Part shown: positions 7,480 through 36,527 of the stretch, piece after piece
Numbering within the stretch: position 1 is the stretch's first letter
How the letters are laid out: the number at the start of each line of letters is the position of its first letter
From: Thiogranum sp.
GTDB lineage: Bacteria; Pseudomonadota; Gammaproteobacteria; DSM-19610
Direction: 5' to 3'
DNA: 36,527 nt
Assembly: GCA_030148915.1 (NCBI GenBank)
Contig: JASBSN010000002.1
Coordinates: 1 to 36,527 of the forward strand
Notes under the pieces: model-generated
What the model saw: only the letters and a program-made list of their open reading frames with translations
What the model was told of the DNA's origin: nothing
Databases searched by the model: none
Made by a program: the position numbers and the translations under genes

Positions 7480-8766
<1,287 letters not shown>

Positions 8767-8871
8767 GGGCGGGGTCGGCGCTGTCAGATTCCGCGCTGAG
8801 CGGCGGAGAAACTCCCAAGAGGGGCGACGCAGTTATTTCGGAATGCTTTGGTTTTGTAACCACCGAACCCA

Positions 8872-8954
8872 GAGGTGGCGTCGGGTAAGCCTTCGATGGT
8901 GCATGTGCCGCTCGCGGCACCCTAAGCCATCGAAGGCTTACCCGACGCAACCTC
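8872..8954. repeat. Cruciform element, copy A: variable arms around a conserved 27-nt core
   Basis: Arms 8872-8899 and 8927-8954 are reverse complements over 28 bp with one mismatch (8877/8949); the inner 22 bp are perfect. The 27-nt centre (8900-8926) contains its own small stem, GTGCCGC (8905-8911) with GCGGCAC (8914-8920). Read on the minus strand, the centre begins CTTAGGG and ends CACATGCA. It is identical at 25 of 27 positions to the centre of the element at 36379-36463, although the arms of the two copies share no sequence. It sits between the convergent genes serS and glnD and could also stop transcription from both sides, although no T-tract follows. Confidence 0.9.
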
Positions 8955-8963
8955 GAACGTGCG

Positions 8964-11660
8964 TTAATCGGTGCTATCCAGAACGCGGACCAATTCACTG
9001 CGCAGACGCGCCTGCTGCTGCTCATCCAACGGGTTTCCCTGCATGTCGGTGACAAAAAAGACGTCTTCTGCCTGAGAACCGAAGGTGCTGATTTTGGCGT
9101 TCTGCAATTGCACGTCGTTACTGAAAAATACCCGTCCGACGCGCGACAGCAGCCCCGGGTAGTCGGTGGTGATGAGCTCGACGATGGTGCGTTGGGCGGT
9201 CTCATCATGTTCGAAATTCACTTTGGTCTCGACTTTGAAGTGGCGCAGCCGGCGCGGCGCGGTTCGCGCCACCAGGGTAAAGTCACCGTCGGGTTCCGCC
9301 AGTTCCTGATTGATCAGCGTCAGCAGCTCCTGTCCCTGATAGCGGTCTAGCACCGGCTCGCCGGAAGCGTTGAGCACCTGATAAGTGTCGAGGGCATAGT
9401 CGCGCGCCGTGGTGATAATCCGCGCTTCGGTAATCGTCATGCCCAACTGGTCGAGCAACCCGGTAGTGCGGCTGAACAACCGGTCTATCACCGGCGTGTA
9501 GACGAACAACGCGCTGCCGCCGCGCTCCGAGTGGGGCAACAGTGCCACGCGGACGCCATCGCTGTGCCCGGGTTCGAGGATCACTCCGGCGTGCCAGACG
9601 ACTTCGTTGGTCTTATGGCGCAGGAAATAATCCTCCGGCAGGTCGTTCCACAGACCTTCGAGCAATTGGGTGTCGAGGCCTGTGTCGAGCAGGCGCGCGC
9701 GCGCGGCCTGCTTGATATCGCCGATCAGCTCCTCGCGATGCAGCGGGTTTTCCAGGCCGCGCAGCAAGGCGCGGCAGGTGGAGTTGTAGAGATCTTTCAG
9801 CAACGCATCCTTCCAGCTGTTCCAGAGCGTCGGGTTGGTAGCGCAGATATCGGCCACGGTCAGCAGGTAGAGGAAGTCGAGACGCGTACGGCCGCCGACC
9901 TGGCAGGCGAACTCGTGAATCACATCGGGGTCGGAGATGTCGCGCCGCTGCGCCACGCTGGACATGAGGAGATGGTTTTCCACCAGCCACGCCACCAGGT
10001 TCTGGTCGTATTCGCTAAGGTCGTGGCGGGCGAGAAATTCGCGCGCATCGACCGCGCCCAGCTCGGAATGACTGCCGCCGCGGCCTTTGGCGATATCGTG
10101 AAACAGGCCGGCAAGGTACAACAGCTCGGGCTTGGGGATACTCTGCGCCACCCGATTGCACAAGGGAAATTCCTGCGCGTGAGTATTAACAAAAAACCGC
10201 CGCAGATTGCGGATTACAAACAGCGTGTGTTCGTCCACCGTGTAAGCGTGAAAGAGGTCGTGCTGCATCTGTCCGACAATGTGCTCAAACGGCGGGTAAT
10301 AGGCTTCGAGAATGCCGTAGCGGTTCATGCGCCGCAGCTCGTGGGTGAGGCCGCGCGGCTGACGGAAGATTTCCATGAACAGGCTGCGACAGCGTATGTC
10401 GTTGCGAAAATCATCGTCAATAAGATATTGGTAGTGGCGCAGCAGGCGGATAGTCGAGGCCCGGACGCCCTGTAGTTCCGGGTGCTGCTGCAGCAGCAAA
10501 AACACTTCCAGCATGGCGAACGGGTAGTGCTCGAACACCGTGTCGTAGCGGACTTCCAGGAATCCCTTGCGCGCCTGAAAGCGACGGTTGATTTTTACCG
10601 GCGCGCTCTCGCTGTCCTCGGCGTAGAGTATCGCCTCCTTGAACAGTTGCAGCAGCATTTCGTTTAACTGGCTGAGCTGGCGTATGGCGAGGTAGTAGTC
10701 TTTCATGAACCATTCCACCGCCAGGTGGTGGGCCTCGTCGTGATAGCCAAACTGTTTGGCCAGCGCGCGCTGGTGATCGAACAGCAGTCGATCCTCGCGA
10801 CGCCCCGTGAGCTGGTGCAGACCGAAACGCACCCGCCAGAGGAAACGCTGGCTTTCCATCAATTGCGCGTATTCCTCATCGCTGATGAAGCCGCGCGCGA
10901 CCAGATCCCGCAGGCGGTCGGAGCCGAAATGGCGTTTGAATACCCAGGCGATCATCTGCCCGTCACGCAGGCCGCCCGGGCCCTCCTTGACATTGGGCTC
11001 CAGGTTATAAAGCGCATCGTCAAAGCGCTTGTAGCGCGCCTCTTGTTCCTTGAGTTTGGCGGCAAAAAAGGCCGCGCTGGGCCACACACTGTCGGGGCCG
11101 GTGCGCTCGCGCATGGCCTCGAACAGGGGCTCCGAGCCGCACAGCAGGCGCGCTTCCATGAGATTGGTCGCCACGGTGATGTCGGCGCGGGCCTGCTCTT
11201 GGCATTCCTGCAAGGTGCGCACGCTGTGACCGACCTCCAGGCCGATATCCCACAGTCCGCTGAGCAGGGCTTCGAGCCGGCCGCCGGACTCGGGGCCTGC
11301 GGCGACCTCCAACAGCACCAGGAGGTCGATGTCGGATCCTGGCAGCAGCTCGCGCCGTCCGTACCCGCCGACTGCCACCAGCGCACCGTTGAAATCCCCC
11401 AGCCAACGCCGCCAACTCCGCACCAGCACCTGGTCGACCGCCCAGCTGCGGGCATGGATCAGAGCGGTGATATCCTCACCGTCGAGAAAACGCCGGGCCA
11501 GCACCTCGCGGACCTGCTGCAGGAACTGCCGGAAAGCCCGCGGCAGTCCCTCGTCGTCCTCGGCGCTGTCGAGCAGCTTGGTGTCGAACCAGCCCGCAAA
11601 GGCGGAATCGCTTGCGACTTCCGGTTCGGGCGAGGGCAACGGACTGAATTCAGAGCGCAT
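8964..11660 (-). CDS. glnD: Bifunctional PII uridylyltransferase / uridylyl-removing enzyme
   Basis: An 898-aa cytoplasmic nitrogen sensor that adds UMP to PII proteins when glutamine is low and removes it when glutamine is high. The nucleotidyltransferase motif GGYGRRELLPGSDID spans 98-112, with catalytic D110 and D112. The HD hydrolase domain has GLFHDIAKGRGGSH with H521 and D522. Two ACT glutamine-sensing domains occupy about 700-898. Length matches the family (about 890 aa). The start ATG shares a base with the map stop (TGATG on the minus strand), so translation is probably coupled to map. The glnD-map pairing is common in gammaproteobacteria. Confidence 0.97.
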   Translation of the reverse strand: MRSEFSPLPSPEPEVASDSAFAGWFDTKLLDSAEDDEGLPRAFRQFLQQVREVLARRFLDGEDITALIHARSWAVDQVLVRSWRRWLGDFNGALVAVGGYGRRELLPGSDIDLLVLLEVAAGPESGGRLEALLSGLWDIGLEVGHSVRTLQECQEQARADITVATNLMEARLLCGSEPLFEAMRERTGPDSVWPSAAFFAAKLKEQEARYKRFDDALYNLEPNVKEGPGGLRDGQMIAWVFKRHFGSDRLRDLVARGFISDEEYAQLMESQRFLWRVRFGLHQLTGRREDRLLFDHQRALAKQFGYHDEAHHLAVEWFMKDYYLAIRQLSQLNEMLLQLFKEAILYAEDSESAPVKINRRFQARKGFLEVRYDTVFEHYPFAMLEVFLLLQQHPELQGVRASTIRLLRHYQYLIDDDFRNDIRCRSLFMEIFRQPRGLTHELRRMNRYGILEAYYPPFEHIVGQMQHDLFHAYTVDEHTLFVIRNLRRFFVNTHAQEFPLCNRVAQSIPKPELLYLAGLFHDIAKGRGGSHSELGAVDAREFLARHDLSEYDQNLVAWLVENHLLMSSVAQRRDISDPDVIHEFACQVGGRTRLDFLYLLTVADICATNPTLWNSWKDALLKDLYNSTCRALLRGLENPLHREELIGDIKQAARARLLDTGLDTQLLEGLWNDLPEDYFLRHKTNEVVWHAGVILEPGHSDGVRVALLPHSERGGSALFVYTPVIDRLFSRTTGLLDQLGMTITEARIITTARDYALDTYQVLNASGEPVLDRYQGQELLTLINQELAEPDGDFTLVARTAPRRLRHFKVETKVNFEHDETAQRTIVELITTDYPGLLSRVGRVFFSNDVQLQNAKISTFGSQAEDVFFVTDMQGNPLDEQQQARLRSELVRVLDSTD

Positions 11661-12542: not shown

Positions 12543-12680
12543 CTTGTTAACAACGCGTTTCGCAGGTTTGTGGCACGCGAACTTAAATCCACACATGCGT
12601 CGACACGTGCAGTTGGGTGCCCACAATCGGGTTACTGCACGGGGCGTATGGAGGCCTAACCCTACTAAGAGGTTTATATT
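12543..12680 (+). promoter_or_regulatory. Structured rpsB 5' leader, candidate S2 autoregulatory site
   Basis: CGTGCAGT (12606-12613) pairs with ACTGCACG (12634-12641), and TGGG/CCCA (12614-12623) forms an inner stem. Closer to the start, AACC and GGTT (about 12658-12674) can pair and partly occlude the AAGAGGT ribosome site at 12668-12674. Ribosomal protein S2 represses rpsB-tsf through the leader in gammaproteobacteria. Assigning this structure to that mechanism is inference from position and folding. Confidence 0.45.
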
Positions 12681-36242: not shown

Positions 36243-36358
36243 CGTCTTTCTGGCGTATGCCAAACAAAAGCGCTGACGCGTTGAACGCCCACAGGGCGAG
36301 CGAAGCGCGCCATCCAGTGGGTTTAATAACCTGGATACCGACCTACGCCGGTATGACG
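36243..36358. repeat. Diverged GTCATTCCGGC-family inverted pair
   Basis: Positions 36331-36358 match the reverse complement of the unit at 2.2 kb (with its CTGGATTCC end) at about 24 of 28 positions. CGTCTTTCTGGCGTATGCC at 36243-36261 is a more degraded copy in the opposite orientation. The pair therefore resembles the 2205-2313 arrangement with a longer centre. Confidence 0.6.
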
Positions 36359-36378
36359 AATGGATCAGTTTCCCTAAA

Positions 36379-36463
36379 GCGGGCTGCGGCCGGTGCGGAC
36401 TTTTTGGCTTAGGGCGCCGCAAGCGGCACATGCACCAAAAAGTCCGCACCGGCCGTAGCCCGC
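36379..36463. repeat. Cruciform element, copy B: variable arms around a conserved 27-nt core
   Basis: Arms 36379-36407 and 36435-36463 are reverse complements over 29 bp with one mismatch (G at 36386 against T at 36456). The core 36408-36434 starts CTTAGGG, has the inner stem GCCGC/GCGGC and ends CACATGCA. It matches the core of copy A at 25 of 27 positions in opposite orientation. The arms (rich in CGGCCGGTGCGGAC and TTTTT) do not resemble those of copy A. Confidence 0.9.
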
Positions 36464-36503
36464 CTGCACCGAAGCAGGGTCATGGCGCGAGGTAGACGCC
36501 GTG

Positions 36504-36527
36504 GGTGTATGCGCCGCTTGCGCTGCC
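36504..36527 (-). repeat. Cruciform element, copy C (cut by the window end)
   Basis: GGTGTATGCGCCGCTTGCG at 36504-36522 and the five bases after it match the minus-strand reading of the copy B core plus its adjoining GG at most positions (about 18 of 22 in the compared stretch). The left arm would be the preceding bases, roughly 36488-36505. The rest of the core and the right arm lie beyond the window. Confidence 0.55.

Follow-up and report, generated by a model that had tools for sequence, protein, structure and literature searches.

The window analysed here is a stretch of 36,527 nt that makes up one whole contig of a 135-contig, 3.22-Mb Thiogranum genome (labelled G000). It contains two long hairpins that raise the question of how a dispersed repeat can keep its centre constant when its arms, matched to each other within each copy, vary between copies. 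A preliminary description had noted that the 27-nt centres at 8900-8926 (plus strand) and 36408-36434 (minus strand) agree at 25 of 27 positions, and that each lies between arms that are near-perfect inverted repeats within the copy; we recovered both observations, with 27 of 28 and 28 of 29 arm positions paired, respectively.

Two hairpins and their relatives in the same genome

The first unit spans 8868-8958 on the plus strand (96.7 bits with covariance model R1, of which it is one of the building sequences) and has BLAST relatives across the genome. Its left arm (8872-8899) pairs with the right arm (8927-8954) located by the hairpin scan, and its 33-nt constant core (8897-8929) consists of GG/CC closing pairs, the interior-loop strands 8900-8904 (TGCAT) and 8921-8926 (CCTAAG), and an inner hairpin at 8905-8920. 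The left flank (8832-8871, plus strand) resembles a flank consensus ending CCACCAGACCCAGAGG; the right part of the composite element described below is absent because glnD directly adjoins. The second unit lies on the minus strand at 36376-36466 (97.0 bits, likewise a building sequence of R1), with arms at 36379-36407 and, again from the hairpin scan, 36435-36463. Its core (36405-36437) differs from the first at two positions, i.e., the full shared core is 33 nt long with 31 of 33 positions agreeing. This core is inverted with respect to its own flanks (flank score 19.2 versus -23.4 in a leave-one-out flank test), and a weak candidate for a degenerate partner unit, truncated by the contig end, follows on the plus strand (36474-36527; 15.9 bits, E 0.13). 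Both hairpins fold far better than 200 shuffled sequences, as RNA and as DNA alike; for RNA of the core strand the z-scores are -13.2 and -10.7, and none of the 200 shuffles was equally stable.

A scan of the 36.5-kb window for hairpins with a stem score of at least 12 and a centre of up to about 44 nt returned three structures, namely the two units and a palindrome at 2244-2308 (GTCATTCCGGC...). The latter is of a different kind, and similar ones occur at loci of several relatives. Two other features of the window were recorded: positions 36342-36377 are part of another dispersed repeat, with matches at C29:22991, C55:26018 and C2:22947, and a t44 RNA (Rfam RF00127) gives an ordinary match at 12572-12660.

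Across the genome, the 33-nt core occurs in 54 copies with at most three mismatches, against none for the reversed control. Allowing up to nine mismatches around the fetched sites gave 63 cores, comprising 54 complete copies, eight cut by contig ends and one hybrid (C7:3515) that joins a class B left arm to a class A right arm; this hybrid is the single one among 55 uncut copies that lacks complementary arms, the feature by which the preliminary description had proposed to test the family. The covariance model counted 73 places, some of which are the two ends of one copy split between contigs. Counts are therefore approximate, since the contig-end copies C25/C37, C2/C87, C55/C56 and C53/C106 have the same arms, each pair probably being one copy split by a break. 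Each unit, about 85-91 bp in all, has an outer stem of about 25-31 bp and a centre of about 21-27 nt, in which an asymmetric interior loop that hardly varies (on one strand GGTGCAT / CCTAAGCC) encloses a short inner hairpin of variable length.

The arms sort genome-wide into two classes, A (the 8872 type) and B (the 36379 type), of which the window holds one each. In a set of 21 A and 32 B copies, from which the A copy L062 was left out for its 4-nt insertion, arm identity amounts to 69.2% among the A copies and 66.5% among the B copies, against 34.4% across the two classes. The arms had been described as unrelated between copies; this was not confirmed, as each class has a consensus, although the variable part of each arm is copy-specific and matched to the partner arm. 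The picture of an inside-out family stands, with 97.6% identity at the 17 interior-loop and closing positions over 53 copies, against 51.3% for the arms overall. A and B units occur together at 18 sites, with 97-164 bp separating their cores, which face each other at 11 sites, point the same way at six and stand back to back at one; at four or more of the six same-way sites (L063, L074, L082 and L088) one core is inverted inside its own flanks. The composite with its conserved flanks is estimated at about 270 bp.

Arm symmetry, covariation and core inversion

Compensatory change in a hairpin is usually taken as proof of a selected RNA structure, and compensatory change is abundant here. Watson-Crick complementarity of an arm to its own partner averages 95.8% (minimum 80%) and is perfect in 22 of 53 copies; when the left arm of one copy is set against the right arm of another of its class, the match falls to 69.1% (A) and 66.4% (B), with a maximum of 92%. 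In a 35-pair structure aligned over 54 units (53 from the window's genome and one from the relative G001), 97.6% of cells are paired and 27 of the 35 pairs show double changes. The covariation score is 0.690 versus 0.185 for shuffled and at most 0.144 for slid alignments, the structure having been drawn from the same sequences. One alignment row, L069 from contig C37, comes from a contig that opens with a fold-back; the same copy apparently recurs in C25 with the other flank.

The main rival to the explanation that we prefer is that the unit is a functional RNA, a hairpin acting in the 3' region of mRNAs, on stability or through RNase III or a protein bound at the loop, with selection on pairing maintaining the covariation. 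We regard this as somewhat unlikely. It would account for a near-invariant interior loop flanked by two covarying stems, and for the 3' and convergent location of the copies; at facing A/B pairs each of the convergent transcripts would meet the core-sense hairpin first. It also accords with the types of non-Watson-Crick cell. Read on the core strand, G-T exceeds A-C by 31 to 8 over all stems (p 0.0003; some inner-stem cases may share descent) and by 19 to 4 in the outer stem (p 0.003), and the excess recurs in each class (13:4 and 18:4), though the two classes are mostly oriented opposite to each other. Together with the constant loop, this bias suggests that the folded core strand, as single-stranded DNA or RNA, is recognised.

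The frequency of G-T cells speaks against this RNA reading. Among 1512 outer-stem cells, 1453 (96%) are Watson-Crick, 19 G-T, 4 A-C and 36 other combinations, and G-T, at just 1.3%, is rarer than the remaining mismatches (2.6%; 19 vs 40); the inner hairpin has 358 Watson-Crick, 12 G-T, 4 A-C and one other cell. Homogenising at the DNA level fits such a scarcity of intermediates better than slow passage through G-U. The units of other species are similar in this respect. In 12 units from five other genomes, each scored at 25 positions in its best-fitting register, 10 are Watson-Crick at 25 of 25 positions, and 292 of 300 cells in total are Watson-Crick, with one G-T, one A-C and six others.

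Inversion of the core within its flanks is a further point against a functional RNA. A leave-one-out flank profile applied to 61 copies gave a clear orientation for 46 (16 A and 30 B; 15 were unclear), and in five of these 46 (three A and two B, including the window's copy at 36405) the core is flipped with respect to the flanks. Template switching of the polymerase between inverted arms would give a joint account of the arm symmetry, the scarce G-T intermediates and the inverted cores. Homogenised arms and an inverted spacer are its reported outcome in the account of inverted repeats given in PMC8604942, and PMC8794818 argues that template switching maintains RNA stems. Both outcomes are present here, with arms homogenised copy by copy and the spacer found in both orientations, from which we infer the process. 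The preliminary idea that one arm is copied from the other is thus retained as the best account of the symmetry; its source is the partner arm and not DNA of the landing site.

That part of the idea, in which a core inserts and turns the flanking DNA into a palindrome by fold-back copying, we consider highly improbable. One observation in its favour is a class A copy at C51:93647 (L075:1012-1116) whose 39-bp perfect stem continues past the class A arm, as would be expected if flanking DNA had been replaced along a copying tract; such tracts may therefore reach into the flanks. The class-specific consensus of the arms contradicts it, as do orthologous hairpins whose paired changes accumulate in place (see below); a core that palindromises whatever adjoins it is not what these copies record. 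Insertion into the centres of pre-existing palindromes, the other route proposed earlier, gained no support. A 15-bp perfect palindrome at C121:2586-2616 (L193) has class B arm sequence and flanks without a core, and from its sequence it looks like a unit after symmetrical deletion of tip and core. A second coreless hairpin, at L051:984-1040 (C2), has a perfect 24-bp stem and a 9-nt loop and sits some 50 bp away from a B unit.

Neither the constancy of the loop nor the bias of G-T over A-C is accounted for by template switching alone, and the bias counts against it. A related possibility is that a recent burst left the family behind as a selfish or inert relic; identical cores would then reflect recency or recombination, template switching would be passive and nothing would now read the core. 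Nearly all copies lie in one genome, the B/A hybrid C7:3515 suggests exchange within cores, and several contigs break at copies, all of which would suit such a relic. We nonetheless hold it decidedly unlikely, because arms of the same class are about 67-69% identical at the same time as the loop is 96.8-98.2% identical, and because much the same loop recurs in sister species despite different arms.

Several contigs of the fragmented draft genome break at units, and contigs C37 (L069:1-265) and C26 (L140:1-249) open with perfect core-centred fold-backs of 119 and 112 bp, which are probably assembly artefacts or else a minority inverted form. That the family as a whole is an artefact of short-read metagenome data, as these contig ends might suggest, is barely credible, given that 31 of 45 sites are internal to a contig and have called genes on both sides, and that units of this kind also turn up in separately assembled sister species.

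Gene context, orthologous sites and distribution

The copies are intergenic and mostly 3' of genes. None of 45 sites examined lies inside a called gene; 18 are between convergent, 11 between tandem and two between divergent genes, and 14 have one side off the contig, all these counts being based on a home-made coding score and given without a genome-wide background. In the window, about 100 bp separate serS from the start of the A unit, and 5 bp lie between the end of the unit and the glnD stop. Its two neighbours are adjacent in the window (8766-8964) and lie about 174 kb apart in G004 and about 1.1 Mb apart in G003, the relatives with both genes on one contig; in other relatives the matches to serS and glnD are on different contigs. 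This A unit, which has no B partner, may lie at a rearrangement junction.

A terminator between convergent genes had been suggested as a second role. The convergent setting is indeed frequent (18 of the 31 sites with both neighbours), but none of 54 copies has TTTTT directly beyond the stem on one strand or the other, and intrinsic termination was rejected on this ground. A terminator scan of 8700-9050 likewise gave no match, although it counts loops of 3-8 nt and is blind to the whole hairpin.

Comparison of flanking genes ties three sites between genomes, and the ortholog pairs are few. Downstream of gltD, a unit is present in G004 and G014 and G000 is without one; the 3' ends of gltD were checked in these three genomes, two of 17 loci carry a unit, and locus L207 is a weak match. 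Over 28 positions the G004 and G014 hairpins have 22 the same, four double changes and two one-sided changes with a mismatch at the stem foot. By eye, the arms at this site are less changed than the flanks, so constraint on the arms is possible, which counts against the template-switching account. At a second site, where the gene beside the hairpin of the window's genome (L094) is dnaB-like, comparison with G001 (L108) gave 17 positions the same, eight double changes and three one-sided changes with a mismatch. The third site, downstream of an HDOD-domain gene, holds an A/B pair in G000 and a single unit in G001, and the G000 B arms compared with it show 11 positions the same, 15 double changes and two with a mismatch. 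Hairpins at orthologous sites of sister species differ mostly by changes matched on both arms, as the first two pairs show.

In G001 the hairpin begins right behind the HDOD stop codon and takes up almost all of the space before the facing gene, a placement that would suit a functional RNA. The proteins closest to the HDOD protein of G000 are those of G004 (89%) and G014 (88%), both without a unit at this position, and units are found at two of 15 such loci; independent insertion at this site is possible. Presence and absence at orthologous sites shows that units have been gained or lost.

Units were recognised in six of 17 Thiogranum genomes when candidates from a first look, at most 150 per genome, were scored: the window's own, G011 (five places), G001 (five matches at four places) and G004, G014 and G005 (one each). 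About 70 copies in one genome and none detected in 11 of 17 members of the genus would be odd for a needed regulator, a further argument against a functional RNA. Arms in the other genomes are mostly unlike A and B, the length of the inner hairpin varies, and the interior loop has drifted at some positions in G011 and G005. In G011 (L102, L106, L109, L111 and L114) we observed a third arm class, whose stems mostly have a run of T's plus GCG-like bases at the opening and the complement of these at the close; in four of the five, by eye, CAG stands ahead of the T's. At L099 of G001 (C46), two units stand back to back (1375-1459 and 1501-1585); those of the window's genome usually face each other.

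Outside the genus, no unit was recognised in three genomes of sister genera in the same family, the sole additions from a search of the order, where weak hits were confined to G019 (E 3e-4). Loci L163 and L164 of that genome hold GTAG-flanked palindromes that by eye are of the classical REP kind and of another kind than the units. A BLAST comparison of the A unit with 39 genomes, drawn from 22 genera, matched two, each of them Thiogranum, and in a sparse sample of the class, searched with stricter filters and 23 candidates scored per genome, one of 185 genomes matched, namely that of the window. Core-pattern matches belonging to the family were found in Thiogranum sp. BWSM_145 and BWSM_146. 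Among GTDB contigs, the T..A core pattern occurs in eight stretches, of which the two from Thiogranum alone have arms paired at 20 of 20 positions; the other six, with 4-7 of 20, were rejected. So were five viral stretches with the same pattern (2-9 of 20) and one viral stretch with the C..G pattern, which by eye has no palindromic arms. The class A unit had no blastn match to phages, and its one 33-nt match to plasmids, within a Rhizobium gene, was attributed to chance. At the gathering threshold, Rfam searched with the whole window gave no match at either hairpin, which also counts against a functional RNA of a known family; with E up to 1 for 8780-9020, it returned chance-level matches to microRNA hairpins alone (20-21 bits).

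Linkage to a Y1 (RAYT-type) transposase was ruled out. None of 26 loci of the genus with a Y1-transposase match holds a unit within at most 1.5 kb, i.e., the arrangement of RAYT-mobilised REPINs, a RAYT gene flanked by repeats, was seen at 0 of 26, and the unit carriers G004, G014 and G011 (95, 86 and 88% complete) gave no Y1 match.

Relation to known systems and proposed mechanism

We found no earlier description of this hairpin family in the open-access literature searched. The units share broad features with REP, BIME and REPIN elements as characterised in sections of PMC3733652: many dispersed intergenic palindromes, inverted dimers that sometimes combine two different units, a location downstream of genes and between convergent genes, and frequent restriction to one lineage. 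REPs have stems of 5-13 bp and loops of 2-20 (PMC3733652), with a published range of 20-40 bp for the whole unit, as compared with stems of about 25-31 bp, a centre of about 21-27 nt and a unit of about 85-91 bp in Thiogranum. The unpaired tag at one end of a REP palindrome is not typical of the family, since GTAG lies near the 5' foot in two of 54 copies and CGTC occurs in two of 54; and, unlike in REPs, conservation resides in the interior loop and not in the stem, with no linked RAYT. An experimentally tested parallel in the mode of reading is the E. coli REP recognised by TnpA-REP, a hairpin with an obligatory unpaired region in its stem, the other parts of which are contacted partly by shape. 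According to PMC8266576, the enzyme needs the unpaired bulge, the GTAG and a few stem positions, and its remaining stem contacts are non-specific. The Thiogranum units differ from this system in having no GTAG, another loop and no associated transposase gene that we could find.

Other hairpin elements provide further points of comparison. Integron attC sites are recognised as a folded strand through a few unpaired bases, with a variable stem sequence, and have conserved outer boxes and a variable middle; relative to this general pattern, the Thiogranum units, with a constant centre and variable arms, are the reverse. The repetitive hairpin-forming elements of sponge mitochondria and the yeast GC42 elements are likewise small, dispersed, apparently mobile and defined by their fold, but in the descriptions excerpted from PMC2800124 and PMC4478555 their stems are conserved and their loops vary, opposite to what is found here. 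Stem-loops of Borrelia plasmids resemble the units in being repeated, intergenic and rich in compensatory changes, and one set lies 3' of lipoprotein genes with 11-13 bp stems that show no mispairing (PMC2674063). Stems of another set reach up to 21 bp, and the passages describing them mention no constant interior-loop core such as that of Thiogranum (PMC2674063).

We propose that the units are REP/BIME-like dispersed palindromes of Thiogranum whose interior loop is recognised and whose arms are symmetrised by template switching, an explanation to which we give an even chance of being correct. The interior loop on the core strand would be the part read by a protein of the cell or of a mobile element, and the arms would need merely to pair. 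The symmetry would arise mainly at the DNA level, as the polymerase switches template between the inverted arms, so that one arm is overwritten with a copy of its partner and the core is occasionally inverted. A putative enzyme would spread whole units, or A/B pairs, as single strands, in the way that is thought for REPs. That the units spread as a mobile element is suggested by their copy number and their presence or absence at sites. The comparisons yielded neither a target-site duplication nor a clean empty site, and no mobilising enzyme was found; the former result and the absence of Y1 linkage count against this explanation.

A more far-reaching variant, which we think unlikely, is a mobile hairpin whose interior loop is its sole sequence-specific part, read by a dedicated single-strand enzyme while copying rewrites the arms in step. 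If this were true, almost the whole sequence of such an element could turn over with its function intact, and the element could thereby escape both homology searches and recombination between copies.

The family shows that a repeat can be defined by its interior loop and fold, with its arms left free. With about 70 copies and a few orthologues, the family allows selection on RNA and copying of DNA to be told apart by counting, and the near-perfect Watson-Crick pairing of its arms, the rarity of G-T and the inverted cores argue for copying from arm to arm at the DNA level, around a constant centre that something probably recognises. Thus, the family would serve as a natural record of how DNA hairpins stay symmetrical.
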